From assembly GCF_004135345.1 (NCBI RefSeq), contig NZ_CP035495.1:1860001-1924000 (forward strand): a stretch of DNA of 64,000 bases, read 5' to 3'. Under the pieces are notes generated by a model. The model saw only the letters and a program-made list of their open reading frames with translations, did not search any database and was not told where the DNA came from. Below, piece after piece: positions 32,771 to 48,748 of the stretch. Numbering within the stretch: the first letter of the stretch is position 1; each line of letters opens with the position of its first letter. Source of the DNA: Xylanimonas allomyrinae. GTDB taxonomy: Bacteria > Actinomycetota > Actinomycetes > Actinomycetales > Cellulomonadaceae. A program made the position numbers and the translations under genes.

Positions 32771-33427
32771 TCAGCCGACGCCGTCGACGGAGGCGAGCGC
32801 CGTGAGCGCTGCGTCCCGTGCGGCCAGCACGTCGGCCTCCGTGCCCGACATCCACAGGCGACCGAACGCTCCCACCGACGAGAAGTGATTGAGGCGCACG
32901 GGCGCGGCCTTCTCGGCCTCGTTGGCGGCGAGGGTGACGTACGCGGCGGGCTCGACCTCCAGCACCAGCATGGTCTCCCCCGCGACGATCATGGTGCCGC
33001 GGTTGAACCGGTTGAGGAGCTGGCACTGGAACGGGTTGACGTTGGTGACGACCTGGACGGACGCGACGTTGGGCCGCATGCGGTCCGCGCGCACGAGGCC
33101 CAGCTCCTCGAGCACCACCTCGCCGGCGCGCAGCACGTCGGCCTGCGAGCCCGAGTGCACCTCGAACATGCCGTAGTGCCGTTCGACGATCTGGCTGCCG
33201 GGGCGCACGTCGGTCGACTTGACCACGCGGTCGACGATGGGGAACACCCAGTTGCCGGGGGCCATCTCGACATACAGCGCGGCCCAGCCCTCGACCACGG
33301 GGTCGCCCTGCGTGATGGTCCCGATGAACGCCGCGAACTGCGGCTGCATGCGGTCGATGTGGCAGTACGCACGCAGCTGGAAGTCCTCGTGCGGCACGCG
33401 GGCCGCCGGGGTCGCGGGAGGGTTCAT
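32771..33427 (-). CDS. Tandem-BMC (BMC-T) shell protein, not EutL
   Basis: A 218-residue microcompartment shell protein with two BMC-like halves. The first (residues ~15-110) has AYCHIDRMQPQFAAFIGTIT and ends in SGSQADVLRAGEVVLEEL. The second (residues ~120-212) has ASVQVVTNVNPFQCQLLNRF and SGTEADVLAARDAAL. Trimers would form pseudohexameric tiles. It lacks EutL landmarks, and a true EutL lies at 38036-38692. The N-terminal half resembles shell proteins of actinobacterial amine-type compartments (judged by eye). ATG 33427 overlaps the eutJ stop (ATGA). Confidence 0.8.
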   Translation of the reverse strand: MNPPATPAARVPHEDFQLRAYCHIDRMQPQFAAFIGTITQGDPVVEGWAALYVEMAPGNWVFPIVDRVVKSTDVRPGSQIVERHYGMFEVHSGSQADVLRAGEVVLEELGLVRADRMRPNVASVQVVTNVNPFQCQLLNRFNRGTMIVAGETMLVLEVEPAAYVTLAANEAEKAAPVRLNHFSSVGAFGRLWMSGTEADVLAARDAALTALASVDGVG

Positions 33428-34359: not shown

Positions 34360-35144
34360 GCCAGGCCCCCGCGGGCGAGCAGGAGCTGCACGAGGTAGCA
34401 CGCCGACGACAACCGGTTCAGCCCCTCGCAGACCGACGCGCCGTACGGGTGGTGCGGACTGGGGAACACGCCCGCGGCCACGATCTCGACCTCGCGCGCG
34501 TGGGTGCGGCACGCGTTGACGCGGTGCTGGACCGGCGCCGACCGTTCGGTGAGGGTCACGTGCGCGACGCCGAGCGTGCCGACCGGGTCGTGTGTCGCGG
34601 CACGGATCTGCTCGGCGTCCCGGCCGTCGAGCACCAGGCCTGCGGCGGGCCGCTCGTTGTACTCGGCGCTGAGCAGCTCGCGGCAGTAGGCGGCCAGGGT
34701 GGCCAGGTCGGCGCCCGCGCCGTCGTGCCCCGCGGCGACGGCGTCGCCGGCCACGGCCAGGAGGTGCGCGCCGAGCGAGTCGAGCCGGCCGCGCAGCACG
34801 ATGCGCGGGTGCGTCTTGGGCACGTAGTGGTTCCGGTTGAGCTGGGTCAGGCGGCTGGGCTTGGTGTCGACGGTCGAGCCGCACTGCGTGCACAGCGGCG
34901 CCGCGTCGCCGTCGACCGGGAACGACGCGTCCCGGTCCCAGCCCGGCCGGGCGGCGGCGTGCCCGCCCGGGTCGTGCCCGCCGGACGGGTCTGCCGGGGA
35001 CCCCGCGTCGTCGAGCACGAGCCGCCACTGCGCTACGAAGTCGGCCGCCGCGGGCGACAGCCGCGCCCCCGGCGGCACGAGCACCACGGCGCCCGGGGTC
35101 GGGCGCCGCAGGCGGTCACGCAGGTCGGCCTCGGTGAGGATCAC
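34356..35144 (-). CDS. eutT: Ethanolamine cobalamin adenosyltransferase EutT
   Basis: A 262-residue enzyme making adenosylcobalamin for EutBC. It begins with the BMC-associated segment VPPGARLSPAAADFVAQW. The metal-site region PLCTQCGSTVDTKPSRLTQL is followed by the EutT signature VPKTHPRIVLRGRLDSL, then helical bundle motifs AAYCRELLSAEYNERP and SACYLVQLLLARG. The CxxC (CTQC) fits the ferrous/zinc cysteine motif of EutT, though I cannot see a second adjacent CC. GTG 35144 overlaps the eutQ stop, and the 3' end overlaps eutJ. Confidence 0.9.
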   Translation of the reverse strand: MILTEADLRDRLRRPTPGAVVLVPPGARLSPAAADFVAQWRLVLDDAGSPADPSGGHDPGGHAAARPGWDRDASFPVDGDAAPLCTQCGSTVDTKPSRLTQLNRNHYVPKTHPRIVLRGRLDSLGAHLLAVAGDAVAAGHDGAGADLATLAAYCRELLSAEYNERPAAGLVLDGRDAEQIRAATHDPVGTLGVAHVTLTERSAPVQHRVNACRTHAREVEIVAAGVFPSPHHPYGASVCEGLNRLSSACYLVQLLLARGGLA

Positions 35145-35824
35145 CGCAGGTTCTCCTCCCAGTCGGCGGGGAAGGTGACGTACACGAACTTGGCCCAGCC
35201 CGGCGTGCCGAACGTGATGCGCGAACCCCGCGGCACGTACAGGACGTCACCGGGGCGCCCGACCCGTTCGCCGTCGGGCGTGCCGATGCGCAGCTCGCCC
35301 TCGAGCACGACCTGCACCTCGTCATACGTGAGGGTCCACGGGAACGAGCCTTTGGTCAGCGTCATGTAGCCGGCCGCCATCGGGGCCCCGTCAGCGGACG
35401 TCACGACATCGGCGGTGCGGACGTCCTGCCCAGGCTCGGGGCCCGGGTAGCCGAACGGCGCGAGCGGCGCCTCGCTCGCGCGAGCGAGGACGACGGGGCG
35501 CGCGGGCAGCGAGGGCGCGGACGGCACCGGAGCGGTGCCCGCACCGAGCAACGACGCGACGATCGCCCGTACACGGGCCTCGACGGCGTCGGCGGCCGGC
35601 CCCGCGGACGGGCAGGGCGCCTGCGGGAGCGCAGGCACGACCGGCGCGGCGGGCGCCTGCGACGGGCGGAGTCCCGTCGCAGGCGCAGCCTCCACCAGGG
35701 TGACGCCAAGGTCACCGGCCACCTCGCGTGCCAGAGGCGTGACCACGGCACCGGCCGGCAGCTCGAGCCGTCCGCCCTCGCCGGCCGCACGGACGTCAGC
35801 AGCGCTGATCGCGATGCGACCCAT
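35141..35824 (-). CDS. eutQ: EutQ-type cupin protein
   Basis: A 227-residue protein. Its N-terminus (ISAADVRAAGEGG then LPAGAVVTPLAREVAGDLGV) is the microcompartment-type motif shared with EutD here. A Pro/Ala linker contains a possible encapsulation helix VEARVRAIVASLLG around residue 80. The C-terminal EutQ cupin (residues ~120-225) has LTYDEVQVVLEGELRIG and PGDVLYVPRGSRITF. EutQ has been reported as an acetate-kinase-like or shell-assembly factor; the function here is inferred. ATG 35824 was chosen over two upstream GTGs because GGGGGTGAG precedes it. Confidence 0.9.
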   Translation of the reverse strand: MGRIAISAADVRAAGEGGRLELPAGAVVTPLAREVAGDLGVTLVEAAPATGLRPSQAPAAPVVPALPQAPCPSAGPAADAVEARVRAIVASLLGAGTAPVPSAPSLPARPVVLARASEAPLAPFGYPGPEPGQDVRTADVVTSADGAPMAAGYMTLTKGSFPWTLTYDEVQVVLEGELRIGTPDGERVGRPGDVLYVPRGSRITFGTPGWAKFVYVTFPADWEENLR

Positions 35825-35837
35825 CACCACTCACCCC

Positions 35838-36500
35838 CTACTGGGCCTGCGGCAGGATCTGCTCGACGTCCGTGTGCGGCCGCGGGATGACGTGGACGGA
35901 GACGAGCTCGCCGACCCTCCCCGCGGCAGCCGCACCGGCGTCGGTCGCGGCCTTGACCGCGCCGACGTCGCCACGAACCATCACGGTCACGTAGGCGGCG
36001 CCGATCTGCTCCTTGCCGATCAGCTTGACGTTGGCGGCCTTGACCATCGCGTCGGCCGCCTCGACGGCGCCGATCAGGCCTTTGGTCTCGACCATGCCGA
36101 GCGCGATCATCTGGACATCAGCCATGGCAGTGCTCCTTGCTGTGTGGGTGGTGGTGGAACGGGGCGCCGGCGCTGGGGCCGGAGCTGGCGTGGCCCTTGC
36201 TTGCGAGGGCTTGGCTTTCGAGGGCTTCGCTTTCGTGGGCTTGGCCTGCGAAGGCTTGGCTTGCTGGGGCTCTGCTTGCGAGGGCTCTGCCTGCGAGGGC
36301 TCAGCCTTCGCAGCGGCGGCCCTCGTCGTGCCCGCGAGCGGCTTGCTGCTCGCGGGCCGCCGCACGGGCTCATCGCGGCCTGCCTCCGCTACCTTCCTGC
36401 GCCTCGTGACCGCGGGCTGGGGGCCCGAGGGGACGGCGGCCGGTGATGTCGGCGGGGCCGGGGAGGCCGGTGGTCCCGGCGGCGGCACGTGATCAGACAT
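35838..36500 (-). CDS. BMC-H shell protein with 125-residue low-complexity N-terminal extension and internal start
   Basis: The C-terminal 95 residues from ATG 36125 ([20 protein letters not shown], ending in [10 protein letters not shown]) are a canonical EutM/PduA-type hexameric shell subunit. The frame is open and in phase upstream to ATG 36500, giving 220 residues. The extension begins [20 protein letters not shown] and has a basic patch TRRRK. It then has seven pentads of form A-E/K-P-x-x (acidic ones first, basic ones later) and an Ala/Pro run. Both starts have ribosome sites: GGGAGG before 36500, which overlaps the eutE end by 8 bp, and AAGGAG seven bases before 36125. Long and short forms are therefore likely. 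No other single-domain BMC-H gene exists in the operon. Confidence 0.85.
36180..36310. repeat. Degenerate 15-bp coding repeats within the BMC-H extension
   Basis: About seven units of a 15-bp pattern (plus-strand core GCTTGCGAGGGCT and variants with TTTCG or CTGCG) encode the A-E/K-P-S-Q pentads. Base choice here includes more T and A on the plus strand than neighbouring genes. Expansion by slippage is likely. Confidence 0.75.
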
Positions 36501-37989
36501 GCGTCGTCCCTCCCAGGAGCTGCTCGACGACGCGGCGCACCATGCGCTCGACCGCCGCAGCAGCGGTGTCCGAATCGGACGCGAGCGGTTCCGTCGCGCG
36601 CCGCGCACCGGTGCCCGGCGTCCTTGCGGCGGCGGGAGGCTCGGCGCGGTGATACGCGACACGCTTGACGTTGAGCAGGTGGCGCACCGAGACGTTGTCG
36701 GAGACGGTGGCTCCGCCCAGCCCGCCGGGGGCCAGCGTGAGCGACGGCTCGAGGCCCGTCGTGGCTCCGATGCCGCCCAACGAGCCCCAGGTGTTGACCA
36801 GGATGCGGAACGCGGGCTTCTCGATGCCGAACGCGAGGATCGCCTCCTCGTCGCGCGCATGGATGACGACCGAGTGGCCGTCGCCGCCGAACCGCAGCAG
36901 CTCGATCGCACGCTCGCACCCGGCACGCCACCCGTCGACGACCATGAAGCCCAGCACCGTGGTCAGCTTCTCGCGCGACAGCGGGTGCGCCGCGCCCACG
37001 CCGTCGAGGTCCGCGACCAGCACGCGCGCCGAGGCCGGCACCGCGATCCCGGCGCGCTCGCCCAGGTACTGCGGGGTGCGGCCCACGTAGTCGGCGACCA
37101 TGAGCCCACCGGGCCGGAAGAGCATGGCGGCGAGCCGGTTCGCCTCGTCGCGGCTGAGCCAGTGCGCGCCGTGGGCGCGCATGGCGTCACGCAGGTGCTC
37201 GGCCACGGGGGCGTCGGCGACGACGACCTGCTCGGTGGCGCAGATCGTCGAGCAGTCGAACGCCTTCGACTCGACGATCATCTGCGCGGCCCGCCCGACG
37301 TCGGCGCTGCGGTCCACGTAGGCGGGCACGTTGCCCGGCCCGACGCCGATCGCGGGCTTGCCGCACGAGTGCGCGGCGCGCACCATCCCCGGCCCGCCCG
37401 TCGCGAGCACGAGCGAGGTCAGCCGGTGGCTCATCAGGGCCTGCGTGCCCTCCACGCTGATCTCCGTGAGGCACGACACCAGGCCCGGCGGCATCCCCGC
37501 GCGCTCGCCCGCCTCGGCCATGACGCGCACGGCCTCCGCCGTCGAGCGCCGTGCCGACGGGTGCGGGGCCACGACGACCGCGTTGCGGGCCTTGACGCCG
37601 ATCAAGATCTTGAAGATCGCCGTCGACGTCGGGTTGGTCGACGGCGCCAACGCCGCGACGACCCCGACGGGCCAGCCGATCTCCACGATCCCGCGAGCCT
37701 CGTCACGACCGATCACCCCGCACGTGGGCACGTCGCGGATCGACTCCCAGACGCTCGACGCCGCGAACTCGTTCTTGATCCGCTTGTGCTCGGCGTCGCC
37801 GAAGCCGGTCTCCTCGTGCGCGAGCACGCCGAGCCGGCTCGCCTCGCGCACGGCAGCCGCGACCATCGCCTCGCAGATCCTGTCCACCTCGTCCTGCGGG
37901 GCGAACTGGAAGGCATGCATGGCCTCGTTCGCGGCCACGACCCGGTCACGGGCGTGCTGAATCGCGACGAGGTCTGCGTCGAGCGTCAT
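36493..37989 (-). CDS. eutE: CoA-acylating acetaldehyde dehydrogenase EutE
   Basis: A 498-residue enzyme oxidising acetaldehyde to acetyl-CoA inside the compartment. Seen are the NAD-binding region [45 protein letters not shown] and the catalytic Cys in [34 protein letters not shown] is the usual C-terminal block. After the enzyme proper comes a ~50-residue linker and a terminal amphipathic helix [19 protein letters not shown], which looks like a C-terminal encapsulation peptide (most EutE relatives carry it at the N-terminus). ATG 37989 has AGGAGGTGACA directly upstream. Confidence 0.94.
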
Positions 37990-38035: not shown

Positions 38036-38692
38036 TCAGTACTTGCGGGGCGAGGCCGCGACGTCGAGCACCGCGTCCTGGAACGCGGCACACGCCGCGC
38101 GGCACGCGCTCTGCGAGCCGGTCAGCAGGCCGCCCGCGAAGTTCGTCTCGGACGGCGGCTCGTAGAAGACCTTCATCTCGACCTCGGCCGCCTTGATGGC
38201 CGCGTCCAGGCCGTACGTCGCCTCGAGCGGCGGCGCGATGAGGTATGCCAGCGACTGACCGCGCGCGATGCCCGCGGCCTGCGACAGGTACGAGCCGGTC
38301 GAGCTGATCAGGTGCGGGAAGAACGCGAGGTCTCCGGCCTCGTTGGCCGTGTAGAACCACGCCTCCTCCGTGCAGTAGGCGATGGCGGCGTCCATCCCGG
38401 CCCGTACCTCCGCGGGGTCGGGCCCCGCGAGGATGCCGATGATCTCGCCCGACAGCGGGCCTGAGGCGTGCGCCGAGCCGGCGTAGAAGCTCTTGGCGTA
38501 GACCACGTCGACCTCGGCGAACTTGGTCGCCTCGTCGAGCGAGACGTACAGCGAGTCGTCGATGTCGCAGGTGAGCAGGCCGACGGAGCGTTGCGTGTCG
38601 CTCAGCCCGAGCTTGGCCGCGTAGCCGCGGTCGACGTTCGGGATCATGCGCGTGGCCAGGATGGTCGGCTTGACTGGTTCGAGGATGGGCAT
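38036..38692 (-). CDS. eutL: EutL tandem-BMC shell protein
   Basis: A 218-residue trimeric shell protein with a gated pore. The start MPILEPVKPTILATRMIPNV and the blocks EATKFAEVDVVYAKSFYAGS, GEIIGILAGPDPAEVRAGMD, SSTGSYLSQAAGIARGQSLA and PPLEATYGLDAAIKAAEVEM are diagnostic of EutL. PPSETNFAGGLLTGSQSACR closes the second domain. Length and spacing match the enterobacterial protein. GGAG sits upstream of ATG 38692, 17 bp after the eutC stop. Confidence 0.96.
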   Translation of the reverse strand: MPILEPVKPTILATRMIPNVDRGYAAKLGLSDTQRSVGLLTCDIDDSLYVSLDEATKFAEVDVVYAKSFYAGSAHASGPLSGEIIGILAGPDPAEVRAGMDAAIAYCTEEAWFYTANEAGDLAFFPHLISSTGSYLSQAAGIARGQSLAYLIAPPLEATYGLDAAIKAAEVEMKVFYEPPSETNFAGGLLTGSQSACRAACAAFQDAVLDVAASPRKY

Positions 38693-44283: not shown

Positions 44284-44365
44284 GGGACGGGAGAATCCGG
44301 TGCGAACCCGGAGCTGACCCGCAACCGTGAGGCGCGACGCGCGCCGAGCCGGACCGCCCGCCCCG
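44284..44365 (+). ncRNA. Cobalamin (B12) riboswitch
   Basis: The conserved core is plain: GGGAGAATCCGGTGCGAACC, then CGGAGCTGACCCGCAACCGT, and the B12 box GAGCCGGACCGCCCGCC at 44346-44362. These match the adenosylcobalamin aptamer order. It lies in the leader of the ECF transporter operon, so B12 excess should shut off uptake. About 95 nt separate it from the AGGAGG site of the first gene, leaving room for an expression platform. No equivalent is seen before the divergent eut operon. Confidence 0.93.
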
Positions 44366-44461
44366 CACCGCACGACCACCACACCCGTCGCGGACTGCGG
44401 GTGGGGCCGCCCCGCGCTGCCGCGGTGCCCACGCCTCCCGCGCCCGTCCCAGGAGGCATCC

Positions 44462-46042
44462 ATGACCGCTGCCCGCTCCATCGGCCGCCGGCTCCCCGCC
44501 GCCGCGAGCCTGCTCCTGCTCGCCGCGTGCTCTGCGACACCGGCGTCCAGCCCCTCCCCCGCCGGCCCTCCATCGGGCGACGACGACGTCGCGGCCTGCA
44601 CGGACGCGGGCGACGTCTGGCTCGTCGTCGCCGCCGAGGACGGCACGCGCCTGGCAGACCAGTGCGTCGGCACGCCCGCGACCGGGACGGCGGCGCTCGA
44701 CGCGGCTGGACTCGACGTCGCTCGTGACGCGAGCGGCTTCATCTGCGCCGTCGGCGGCGAGCCCGCCCAGTGCCCCGCGGCGTTCGACGGCCGGTTCTGG
44801 CAGTACTACACCGCGACCCCGGGCGGCGAGTGGGCTTTCGCCACGGCCGGTTCCGACGAGGCGGTGCCGGCGCCCGGCACGATCGAGGGCTGGTGCTACG
44901 GCTCCGCCTGCACACCGCCCGAGATCGCCGATGTGACCGCCCCTCCCCCGCGAGCTGACGAGGTGGGCGCCGCCCGGCCGGGACGCGAGCTGCACCCTGG
45001 GGCGTGGTGGGCGTGGGCCGCGGGCGCCGCGGCCGCCGTCTCCCTGACGACGCATGCGCTGCTCGCCGCTCTCGTGGCCGCCGCGGCCGGAGCGGTCGCG
45101 CTGCGCCGTCGGCCCGCCGACGGAGCACGTCGCACCTGGTGGCTGTACGTGAGCCTCGGAGCGGCGATCGTCGTCGTGCGGCTGGTGCTCCAGGCCGTGC
45201 TCGGGGTCAACCGGGCCGGCACCGTCCTGTTCACGCTGCCCCGGGTGCCGTTGCCGACGTGGGCGGCGGGGATCCGCCTGGGCGGGCCGGTGACCGTCGA
45301 CGGAATGGCGCTCGCGCTCGGGGACGGGCTGCGGCTCGCCGTCATCGTGATGTGCGTCGGAGCCGCTGCCGTGCTCGCCAGCCCGCGCCGCGCCCTGCGC
45401 GCGCTCCCCGCCGCGCTCGGTGAGGCGACCACCGCCATGGCGATCGCGCTGACCGTCGCGCCCCAGCTGCTCGACTCCGCGGCGCGCGTGCGCCGCGCCC
45501 GACGGCTGCGTGGGAGCACCCCGGGGCGTGCCCGCCTGCTGCGCAGCCTGGTGCTGCCCGTGCTCGGCGACGCCATCGACCGCTCGGTGTCGATCGCCGC
45601 GGCCATGGAGGCCCGCGGCTACGGAGCGACGCTCGACGCCCGCCGCGTCCCGGCGGCGACCGCGGGCCTGACCGCCGCCGCGCTGGGCCTGCTCGGGTTC
45701 GGGGCGGTCGCCGTCCTCGGCCTGCCCGGCGCAGGCGCGGCCGGGACGGCGTGCCTGGTCGCCGGGGGCGTGTGCTCGGCCGCGGCCATGACGCTCGCGC
45801 GGCGGCGCCTGGCCGTCACCCGCTACCGGCCCACGCCGTGGACGCGCCGCGAGTCGGCCGTCGCGGCCTCGGGTACTGCCACGTTCGCCGTGGCCGCGTG
45901 GGCGCTGGCCACCGACCCGGCCGTGATGCGCCCGACGTCGCCGGCGCTGTGGCCAGCCCCCACCCCGGCGATGCTCGCCGTCCCGCTGCTGGTCGCGTGC
46001 GCCCTGGCCTGGACGGCGGCGCCCGCGCAGGAGGCTCGATGA
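44462..46042 (+). CDS. ECF transporter T component fused to an N-terminal lipoprotein domain
   Basis: A 526-residue fusion. Residues 1-25 form a lipoprotein signal with lipobox LLAACS. Residues ~40-155 are an extracellular DUF4430-like domain with DVWLVVAAEDGTRLADQC and PAPGTIEGWCYG. The rest is an EcfT membrane protein with several helices and coupling motifs DSAARVRRARRLRG and AAAMEARGYGA. T components link ATPases to the substrate subunit. DUF4430-like domains resemble transcobalamin domains, so capture of corrinoid is a fair inference given the riboswitch. AGGAGG precedes ATG 44462. Confidence 0.85.
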   Translation: MTAARSIGRRLPAAASLLLLAACSATPASSPSPAGPPSGDDDVAACTDAGDVWLVVAAEDGTRLADQCVGTPATGTAALDAAGLDVARDASGFICAVGGEPAQCPAAFDGRFWQYYTATPGGEWAFATAGSDEAVPAPGTIEGWCYGSACTPPEIADVTAPPPRADEVGAARPGRELHPGAWWAWAAGAAAAVSLTTHALLAALVAAAAGAVALRRRPADGARRTWWLYVSLGAAIVVVRLVLQAVLGVNRAGTVLFTLPRVPLPTWAAGIRLGGPVTVDGMALALGDGLRLAVIVMCVGAAAVLASPRRALRALPAALGEATTAMAIALTVAPQLLDSAARVRRARRLRGSTPGRARLLRSLVLPVLGDAIDRSVSIAAAMEARGYGATLDARRVPAATAGLTAAALGLLGFGAVAVLGLPGAGAAGTACLVAGGVCSAAAMTLARRRLAVTRYRPTPWTRRESAVAASGTATFAVAAWALATDPAVMRPTSPALWPAPTPAMLAVPLLVACALAWTAAPAQEAR

Positions 46043-47925
46043 TCACGTTCGACGACGTCACGCTCACCCCCGCGGGGGCGACCCGGCCCGTGCTCGACGG
46101 CGTCTCCCTCACGATCGCGGAGGGCGACCTGTGCCTCGTCGTCGGGCGCACCGGCAGCGGCAAGTCGACGCTGCTCGGCGCCGTCAACGGACTGGTGCCC
46201 CACTTCACGGGCGCGACCATGCGCGGCACCGTCACCGTCGCGGGGCGCAGCACGCGCGACCACCCGCCGCGCCAGCTCGCCCGGCTCGTCGGGTACGTGG
46301 GGCAGGACCCGGCACGCGGATTCGTCACCGACCGCGTCGAGGACGAGATCGCCTACGGGATGGAACAGCTCGGCATCACGCCCACGGCGATGCGCAAGCG
46401 CGTCGAGGAGACGTGCGACCTGCTCGGCATCGGCGACCTGCGCCGCCGCGCACTGACGACACTCTCGGGCGGGCAGCAGCAGCGTGTCGCGATCGCGTCC
46501 GTGCTCGCCGCCCAGCCCCGCGTGCTCGTGCTCGACGAGCCCACCTCCGCGCTCGACCCCACCGCGGCCGGCGACGTCCTCGCCGCGATCACCTCGCTCG
46601 TGCACGACGTCGGGCTGACCGTCGTGCTCGCCGAGCACCGGCTCGAACGCGTCATGCAGGCCGCCGACCAGGTCGTGTGGCTGCCCGGCGACGGCAGCGC
46701 CGTGAACGGGGACGGGCCACAGGTGCTCGCGCGCGCGGACGTGCGCCCACCCCTGGCCGCGCTGGCGCACGAGCTCGGCTGGGCGCGCGTGCCGCTCGAC
46801 GTGCGGCAGGCGCGACGCACCGTCCGCAGCGAGCACCCCGAGCTCGCGGCGGAGCCCGACGACGTCGGGGGCGTCGCGGGATCTGGGGGCGTCCGGGTGG
46901 CGGCGGGACGGGTCGATGCCGGGGCGGTCGGGCGGTCGGCGGGCATCCGGGGCGGGGCGGGGCGGGACGACGCAGGCGCCGTAGCGAGGCGGGACGACGC
47001 CGGGGCCGTGACGGGACCCGCGAGCGGCCAGGGCGTGGCGGGACGGCACGACGCCGGGGCCGTCGGACGGCCGGCGGGCACCGGGCGCGACCGGCCGGCC
47101 CCCGCCGTGGCCGCGCGCGGGCTCACCGTGCGCTACGGCTCGACGACGGCGGTCGACGGCCTGGACCTGAGCCTCGACGCGGGGCAGGTCACCGTCGTCA
47201 TGGGACGCAACGGCGCCGGCAAGTCCTCGCTGCTGTGGGCCCTCGCGGGTGCCACGCCGTCGACGGGAGCGCTGACTGTCGCGGGCACCGACCCGCGCCC
47301 CCGGGCCGCGAGCGCCGCGCGCCGCGTCGTCGCCCTCGTGCCGCAGACGGCGTCCGACCTGCTGTACCTGCCGACGGTCGCCGCCGAGTGCGCGCAGGCC
47401 GACCGCGAGTCCCGGGTCGCGTCCGGCAGCACGGCACGCCTGCTGGCCCGGCTCGACGGCGCCGGCGAGGCCACCGGTGCCCGTGGCCCATTGCTGTGCG
47501 CGAGCCCGCATGCCGACCCGGCGGACCTGTCCGAGGGGCAGCGCCTCGGGCTCGTGCTCGCGGTCCAGCTCGTCGCCCGCCCCGCCGTCGTGCTGCTCGA
47601 CGAGCCGACCCGCGGGCTGGACTACGCGACCAAGGAACGCCTCGCCGGGCTGCTGCGCGAGCTCGCGCGCGAGGGGGCCACCGTCGTCGTCGCGACGCAC
47701 GACGTGGAGTTCGCGGCCGACGTGGCCGACCGAGCCGTCATCCTGGCCGACGGCCAGGTCGTCGCCGACGGCCCGGCGCGCGAGATCTGCACGGCCTCCC
47801 CCGCGTACGCGCCACAGCTCGCGAAGGTGTTCTGGCCGTGGCCGTGGCTCACGCTCGACGACGTGCGCGCGGGCCTGCAGCTCGCGTCGGCGGCAGGCAC
47901 GGCCGCGACAGGTGGCGTGCGGTGA
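46039..47925 (+). CDS. ECF transporter ATPase, two fused ABC domains
   Basis: A 628-residue protein with both ATPases in one chain. Domain 1 (residues 1-250): Walker A GRTGSGKSTLLGAV, signature LSGGQQQRVAIA, Walker B VLVLDEPTSALDP. Domain 2 (from ~355): Walker A GRNGAGKSSLLWAL, degenerate signature DLSEGQRLGLVLA, Walker B VVLLDEPTRGLDY. The linker (residues ~275-350) is a Gly/Ala/Arg repeat with DAGAV four times. It overlaps the T-component stop (ATGA) and the S-component start (GTGA). It energises uptake, probably of cobalamin. Confidence 0.92.
   Translation: MITFDDVTLTPAGATRPVLDGVSLTIAEGDLCLVVGRTGSGKSTLLGAVNGLVPHFTGATMRGTVTVAGRSTRDHPPRQLARLVGYVGQDPARGFVTDRVEDEIAYGMEQLGITPTAMRKRVEETCDLLGIGDLRRRALTTLSGGQQQRVAIASVLAAQPRVLVLDEPTSALDPTAAGDVLAAITSLVHDVGLTVVLAEHRLERVMQAADQVVWLPGDGSAVNGDGPQVLARADVRPPLAALAHELGWARVPLDVRQARRTVRSEHPELAAEPDDVGGVAGSGGVRVAAGRVDAGAVGRSAGIRGGAGRDDAGAVARRDDAGAVTGPASGQGVAGRHDAGAVGRPAGTGRDRPAPAVAARGLTVRYGSTTAVDGLDLSLDAGQVTVVMGRNGAGKSSLLWALAGATPSTGALTVAGTDPRPRAASAARRVVALVPQTASDLLYLPTVAAECAQADRESRVASGSTARLLARLDGAGEATGARGPLLCASPHADPADLSEGQRLGLVLAVQLVARPAVVLLDEPTRGLDYATKERLAGLLRELAREGATVVVATHDVEFAADVADRAVILADGQVVADGPAREICTASPAYAPQLAKVFWPWPWLTLDDVRAGLQLASAAGTAATGGVR
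46900..47090. repeat. Degenerate tandem repeats in the ATPase linker
   Basis: Copies of a GACGACGCCGGGGCCGT-type unit encode D-D/H-A-G-A-V four times, separated by R/G-rich spacers. The region is confined to the interdomain linker and likely arose by slippage. Confidence 0.6.
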
Positions 47926-48748
47926 GCGCAGCGCCGGACCCGCTCACGACCCCGGGCGCGCGGCTGCGCGCCGTCCCCTCCCGCCACGCTCCCGGGTCAC
48001 CCTGACGGCCGCGGCCCTGATCGGCCTGGTCGCGTTCACGTGGCCGCTGCTGGTCGACCCGGCCGCGCTCGTGGGCGACGACCGCACCGGGGCGAGCATC
48101 GCGCCCGTCGTCATGGGCGCGGTGCTGCTGGTGGTCGCGGCGCTCGTGCTGGTCGAGCTGTCGGGGCGCGAGGTGCGCACCACGACGCTCGCGATGCTCG
48201 GGGTGCTCGCGGCCATCGGCGCGATCGTGCGCCCGCTCGGCGCGGGCGCGGGCGGCCTGGAGACGGTGTTCTTCCTCATCGTGCTCGGCGGGCGTGCGTT
48301 CGGCGCCGGGTTCGGCTACCTGCTGGGGGCGCTGACGATCTTCGCGTCCGCGCTGGTCACCGCGGGAGTGGGCCCGTGGATGCCGTACCAGATGATCGGG
48401 GCCGCGTTCGTCGGGCTCGGCGCGGGGCTGCTGCCGCCCACGCGGGCGGGCTCACGCGCCGAGCTCGCGCTCCTGGGCGCGTACGGGTTCGTGGCCTCGT
48501 TCGCCTACGGCTACCTGGTGGATCTGGCGTTCTGGCCGTTCGTCTTCGGCACGGGCTCGCAGGCGGGATTCGACCCGTCCGCGGGGGCGTGGTCCAACCT
48601 GCGCACGTTCGCGGTGGTCAACACGGTGACGTCGCTCGGCTGGAACCTGGGGCGGGCGGTCACGTGCGTCGTGCTGATCGCGGTGCTCGGCCCGGGCCTG
48701 CTGCACGCCCTGCGCCGGGCGTCGCGCCGGGCGGTGTTCGCGGCCTGA
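47922..48748 (+). CDS. ECF transporter S component, frameshifted near its start
   Basis: The substrate-binding membrane subunit. It begins at GTG 47922 overlapping the ATPase stop (SAAPDPLTTPGARLRAVPSR) but runs into a stop at 48003-48005. One extra base in CCCGGG 47991-47996 joins it to the long downstream frame VTLTAAALIGLVAFTWPLLV. That frame contains six hydrophobic segments including VFFLIVLGGRAFGAGFGYLL, GVGPWMPYQMIGAAFVGLGA and SLGWNLGRAVTCVVLI. The repaired length is ~275 residues. The MPYQM block is typical of S components found with B12 riboswitches. A sequencing error is favoured over true loss because the rest is well preserved. Confidence 0.82.

Follow-up and report, generated by a model that had tools for sequence, protein, structure and literature searches.

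The eutM gene of Xylanimonas allomyrinae carries two in-frame start codons, each with its own ribosome site, and very probably yields two forms of its hexameric shell protein (BMC-H): a plain subunit and one with a long N-terminal tail that is predicted to be disordered. A sequence-only reading of the window, the 64,000-nucleotide stretch analysed here, had proposed these two isoforms, and the starts, ribosome sites and reading frame kept in relatives support the proposal well.

On the minus strand, the frame that opens at ATG 36500 runs stop-free for 220 codons to 35838, and its last 95 codons specify a canonical BMC-H protein (Table 1). The outer ATG lies 8 nt inside eutE, whose stop ends at 36493, and has GGGAGG 8 nt upstream; the inner ATG, at 36125, has AAGGAG 7 nt upstream and gives a 95-residue product. 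Both the stop-free extension of 125 codons and the second start, as first described, are thus borne out.

Table 1. Features of the eutM gene and of neighbouring shell and operon genes in the window.
Feature	Position	Strand	Basis
EutM-L, long reading frame, 220 aa, tail plus BMC-H domain	35838..36500	-	stop-free ORF; PF00936 at residues 133-208
EutM-S, canonical 95-residue BMC-H from inner ATG	35838..36125	-	ORF and relatives' cores
N-terminal tail, 125 codons, Ala/Pro/Ser/Thr rich, predicted disordered	36126..36500	-	same frame open in 24/27 assessable loci, window included
GGGAGG, ribosome site of long start, within eutE	36509..36514	-	match of at least 4 bases in 23/24 tailed loci
AAGGAG, ribosome site of short start, across ..A-R-S.. 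in tail frame	36133..36138	-	AGGAG at 7 nt in 23/24; AGG codon bias
Seven A-[EK]-P-x-x pentads, acidic then basic	36201..36305	-	residues 66-100
eutE, aldehyde dehydrogenase	36493..37989	-	PF00171 (query without first codon); start codon chosen by eye; 3' end overlaps long start by 8 nt
eutQ, next gene	35141..35830	-	PF06249
eutL	38036..38692	-	PF00936 and gene order; the other PF00936 place listed for the genome
BMC-T-like shell protein	32771..33427	-	PF00936 score 23.5, cut-off 24.5

The eutM product contains one full PF00936 domain (2e-27, profile 1-75) in which the facet motifs of basal hexamers, KAAN and RPH (PMC8217296), are present as VKAANV and VIPRPH. Only 12 residues follow the domain match, leaving no C-terminal extension of the EutK/PduK kind. 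The core is 84-98% identical in the four family relatives with a full-length match. None of the 57 listed solved sequences aligns with the long protein before residue 118, and the closest single-domain relatives among them are 4axj, 7mmx and 3ngk. AlphaFold2 gives block means of 82-92 for the domain and 50-65 for the tail, which is modeled without secondary structure, and the prediction supports the disorder originally ascribed to the extension.

The gene sits among eutH, A, B, C, L, E, Q and eutN and so belongs to an ethanolamine operon. Pfam matches identify EutH, EutA, EutC, EutN, EutQ, the aldehyde dehydrogenase and a phosphotransacetylase (PTA), whereas EutB was assigned by gene order and by eye and EutL by PF00936 and order. 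Across the whole genome, PF00936 has two places at E up to 0.001, eutM and EutL; eutM is the only single-domain BMC-H gene found at that threshold, and the main facet tile, as far as found, can therefore only come from eutM, with the limit that a very divergent shell gene could be missed by this list. The BMC-T-like protein at 33427-32771 is missing from the list; its score is slightly below the PF00936 cut-off, and scans for the family can overlook it. Beside the operon, on the plus strand of the window at 44327-48748, lie a CbiQ-like gene and an ECF substrate-component-like gene (under cut-off), with an ABC-like protein between them recognized by eye; these perhaps serve cobalt or cobalamin uptake for the B12-dependent lyase.

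We then looked at eutM in relatives. With the query's genome counted where it was searched, the core had matches in 7 of the 199 near genomes searched, in 6 of 221 genomes of the family and in 30 of a draw of 394 from the class; with E limited to 1e-32, they occurred in 2 of 17 genomes of the family of G498 and in 64 of 198 of that of Propioniciclava tarda (Propionibacteriaceae), from which 30 loci and 7 more were examined. The loci read include 28 eut-type genes, the window's among them. One (L139) is open to the contig end, with its start off the contig, and belongs to neither class, leaving 27 assessable. L009 (36% identity) was left out, and seven second copies or other types stand outside the 27: L154 keeps the inner site and a short open stretch, and L155-L158, L166 and L167 have no convincing tail.

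An in-frame N-terminal tail of 30-153 residues is present in 24 of the 27 assessable genes. The proposed search for stops or frameshifts in the upstream frame of relatives thus came out largely in favor of the extension; the tail is missing in three loci (L006, L122 and L142, the last with no eutE end found upstream) and is dispensable to that extent. An additional, tailed shell gene elsewhere in untailed genomes gained no support: one PF00936 place is present in G103, one in G711 and three in G677 (by position eutM and two EutL parts). In L006 and L122, from G103 and G677, about 120-140 nt separate eutE from eutM and include a short out-of-frame reading frame that begins at the eutE stop. This frame may be a detached tail gene, but chance in GC-rich DNA suffices to explain it.

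Over their combined 1601 codons, the 24 tailed loci show no stop in the tail frame, whereas the other two frames hold 27 and 48; leaving out stops that overlap the start codon (ATGA, GTGA) changes the counts to 0 versus 7 and 48. Among PduA-like paralogues of the same bacterial family (nine genes, eight assessable, L145 having been left out at a contig end), none of the eight has a ribosome-site-led upstream start, a rule that 21 of the 24 tailed loci satisfy. Of 30 loci read for other BMC-H types, five were too short and one was misread; 23 of the remaining 24 (L011 left out), together with L008 and L094, were put to this rule, and L007 alone satisfied it, through its own start 15 codons ahead of the domain. 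A tree of 86 cores (85 columns) is poorly resolved, and its starred branches force at least five changes of tail label, so the number of tail origins is not fixed.

The pooled tails are 17% Ala, 17% Thr, 16% Pro and 8% Ser, with 7.4% large hydrophobic residues versus 33.8% in the core. The seven charged pentads on which the sequence-only reading dwelt, three with E and then four with K, are indeed present in the window, but they are not conserved; an alignment shows them to be absent from the same-genus neighbor G002, and we rejected them as the working part of the tail. The window tail has 19 basic and 7 acidic residues. Across the 24 tails, net charge is positive in 16, zero in three and negative in five, and a basic cluster beyond shuffles (P < 0.05) occurs in only six. 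A DNA-binding tail as a general rule is unsupported because charge is not kept; together with the scarcity of basic clusters, this weakens a nucleic-acid tether and favors plain spacing. For the window itself, a charged tether is possible, and plain spacing is at least as likely. No tail domain of the EutK or PduK kind, nucleic-acid-binding or Cys-rich, was matched in the EutM tail. The 153-residue tail of G205 (L092:1042-1500) opens with an Arg-rich, helical-looking stretch and an AEERAAA repeat, unlike the others by eye, and has no Pfam match outside the BMC domain.

We favor the following mechanism. Ribosomes finishing eutE would restart at once at 36500 and make the 220-residue EutM-L, while others would enter at 36125, on a strong and more open site, and make the 95-residue EutM-S. 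The short start is predicted to be less folded in 23 of 24 tailed loci (mean -7.4 versus -14.2 kcal/mol for the long start), and it is ATG in 22 and GTG in two, compared with 16 and eight for the long start. Weaker folding and the commoner ATG predict that plain tiles are made in excess over tailed ones, which we consider rather likely, with the caveat that the folding difference may merely reflect the GC-rich end of eutE and that ribosomes on eutE would melt the outer site. Since the BMC-H domain is identical in both forms, EutM-L and EutM-S would mix within the hexamers and facets of the only hexameric tile found.

If the N-terminus lies on the concave, cytosolic face, the compartment would wear a sparse coat of floppy tails. 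The PduA N-terminus occupies that face, in a report that calls the orientation in native shells ambiguous (PMC6109187); the projection of the tail from the shell, as originally envisaged, thus draws on the PduA orientation, and we regard an outward-facing tail as probable. Salmonella cells that lack EutK or PduK keep their compartments mostly at the pole, and for PduK a tail pointing outward from the concave side has been proposed (PMC12487888, PMC9132943). The coat would do the work of these C-terminal tails, spacing shells and/or tying them loosely to a large partner, for example the nucleoid. EutK_C had no match over cut-off in any of the nine genomes searched, and the window genome has none with E up to 0.001; sub-cut-off matches in G085, G498 and G687 were set aside, being on a different contig or over 1 Mb away from eut. 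With EutQ present, no EutK_C over cut-off and one hexamer with an optional tail, the tailed form is most simply explained as standing in for EutK or PduK. A role in positioning or spacing is nevertheless a tentative assignment, and the explanation as a whole (two starts, a mixed shell with plain tiles in excess, outward tails and an EutK/PduK-like role) has in our estimate an even chance of being right.

The strongest competing account also has two forms but turns the tail inward, or lets it act before closure, tying the enzyme core to the shell as residues 1-37 of PduB do. PduB and PduB' are a known two-start shell pair whose extra N-terminus binds the core (PMC9132943), and the G205 tail begins with what looks by eye like a helix. 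Against this, the operon already contains eutQ, whose product bridges cargo to the shell in Salmonella (PMC12487888), which also makes the cargo tethering first suggested for the tail less likely. Helix-like cargo peptides on eutE and eutC are read by eye only. The low content of large hydrophobic residues in the tails is unlike that of amphipathic binding helices. We consider an inward-acting tail unlikely.

The tail evolves far more freely than the domain, with dN/dS over eight pairs of 0.25-0.96 and 0.01-0.13, respectively. Such loose constraint would fit an account in which the short protein alone matters and the upstream frame is a leader carrying ribosomes from eutE to eutM, through translational coupling or message protection. 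In keeping with it, the long start overlaps eutE or follows it closely. All 24 tailed loci have the outer start within -8 to +22 nt of the eutE stop, a range whose lower bound is partly by construction, as the tail start was taken as the first in-frame start codon at most 40 nt before that stop. A leader, however, needs neither the eutM frame nor a stop-free run, yet 24 of 27 loci have both, and when eight tail pairs were aligned as nucleotides, each of the 12 gaps had a length divisible by three (nucleotides were used because a gap in a protein alignment necessarily spans whole codons). The make-up also remains Ala/Thr/Pro rich and non-hydrophobic. We therefore judge a mere leader to be quite improbable; as for a linker, frame and make-up appear to matter more than residue order.

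Both ribosome sites are kept. At the outer start, the SD match extends to at least 4 bases in 23 of 24 tailed loci and to at least 5 in 21. At the inner start, AGGAG stands exactly 7 nt upstream in 23 of 24, the exception (L093) having GAGG at 8. The recurrence of R-S-T, R-S-N or R-R-T ahead of the inner Met might indicate that only the long protein is made and that the inner AAGGAG arose by chance or reflects a requirement for Arg-Ser-Thr. The Arg codon at this site, however, is AGG in 23 of 24 tail frames, compared with 53 of 622 Arg codons (8.5%) in neighboring eutE stretches; this count restates the AGGAG count at the codon level and is the same fact rather than separate evidence. That AGG is kept despite its rarity in eutE indicates selection for the RNA site and not for the residue alone, as does the fixed spacing of 7 nt. 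The untailed relatives also retain the inner site (AGGAG at 7 nt in L142, GAGG at 8 in L006 and AGGA at 7 in L122), and, by a rough estimate, six full tails per hexamer would crowd all facets of the sole tile. A long form alone is accordingly very unlikely, and the joint conservation of frame, starts and ribosome sites supports both products.

Finally, we examined more distant loci. Eleven clostridial genes and one spirochaetal gene were picked by eye from 80 named relatives (L052 and L053 are near copies); their tail frames contain no stop, versus 27 and 25 in the other frames, and 10 of the 11 clostridial genes have an inner AGGAG(G) 6-9 nt before the start. Of 397 genomes searched in the family of L038, 78 have a match at 1e-40; among 30 loci examined, 13 are convincingly tailed, two are doubtful (L171 and L193, with TTG and no ribosome site) and 15 are untailed, L038, L041 and L072 being common to this set and the one picked by eye. 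The 15 loci flagged by script, the two doubtful ones included, have no stop in the tail frame and 43 and 58 in the others. Net charge is positive in 12 of the 13 clostridial tails, whose sequences look by eye unrelated to the actinobacterial ones while the layout is alike.

These AT-richer loci bear on the weakest alternative, a chance open frame in GC-rich DNA. By itself the window is a weak case, since such DNA frequently lacks stops: when the tail stretch is shuffled by dinucleotides, 47% of the shuffles remain open, all three frames are open in five of the 24 loci (start-overlapping stops excluded), and G+C by codon position (0.69, 0.74 and 0.78 in the tail; 0.75, 0.42 and 0.93 in the core) lacks the core's coding pattern, which fits a Pro/Ala-rich peptide and also non-coding DNA. 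We rejected this alternative, which retains hardly any credibility, on the frame, gaps and starts in relatives and on joint shuffle probabilities of about 10^-8.5 across the actinobacterial loci and 10^-18.7 over 13 clostridial loci, both with loci taken as independent, which for the former is not fully true.

Two tailed clostridial loci warrant separate description. L198 holds a class II aldolase, aldehyde and alcohol dehydrogenases, PduL, a PduS-like protein and a BMC-T, and resembles the fucose/rhamnose kind of C. phytofermentans. In that organism, a table footnote gives only residues 73-161 of Cphy_1182 as homologous to its match (PMC3557285); this fucose/rhamnose BMC-H thus probably bears a tail of about 72 residues. 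L027 (2896-3910) has a tailed BMC-H without an inner start followed by two separate untailed copies identical at 81 and 82 of 88 residues; in this locus, to judge from sequence, several genes supply the two forms that a single one does not.

Taken together, the loci point to a recurring design in Actinomycetota and clostridia, probably reached separately, in which one gene supplies a plain and a tailed tile, the ratio of starts sets the density of a disordered coat, and the coat spaces or positions compartments without EutK or PduK; we advance this generalization tentatively. A single gene that makes a tailed tile at a set ratio offers a testable answer to how metabolosomes lacking EutK, PduK or McdAB are kept from clumping and reach daughter cells. 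It would also provide a ready handle for peptide display on shells, and the two-start design in distant bacteria suggests a simple way to decorate a compartment surface. Annotating such genes with one start would hide one of two products, and shell models with one EutM form would be incomplete for these bacteria.

The arrangement, at first thought unfamiliar among BMC-H proteins, is not unique to the window genome, as relatives and clostridial loci share it. What is already known is a shell protein of two lengths from overlapping starts (PduB/PduB') and C-terminal tails on BMC-H proteins (EutK, PduK). For an optional N-terminal disordered tail provided through a conserved inner start on a hexamer tile, and recurring across phyla, no description was found in the literature searched, which misses most subscription papers and all preprints. 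PduB is a tandem-domain trimer; EutM has one BMC domain, and its tail would be a long disordered linker on a hexamer tile. The two are alike in having two in-frame starts with a ribosome site each, read in EutM from sequence only. In Salmonella, PduB and PduB' are BMC-T proteins encoded by overlapping genes, the long form having 37 additional N-terminal residues that, unlike the role we favor for EutM, bind the core, mainly through PduM (PMC9132943).

Canonical EutM and PduA share the domain of the EutM described here without its tail. A 2021 catalogue notes BMC-H extensions of up to 200 residues, most often C-terminal, and N-terminal tails and a second start are not described in the portion available (PMC8217296). 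Cphy_1182 resembles EutM-L in its probable N-terminal tail, and the accessible part of its report does not discuss the extra part or a second start (PMC3557285). EutK and PduK, like EutM-L, join a BMC-H domain to a tail and are needed for subcellular distribution (PMC12487888, PMC9132943). They differ from EutM in being separate genes whose tails are C-terminal and carry a nucleic-acid-binding fold (EutK) or a Cys-rich motif (PduK) (PMC12058022).
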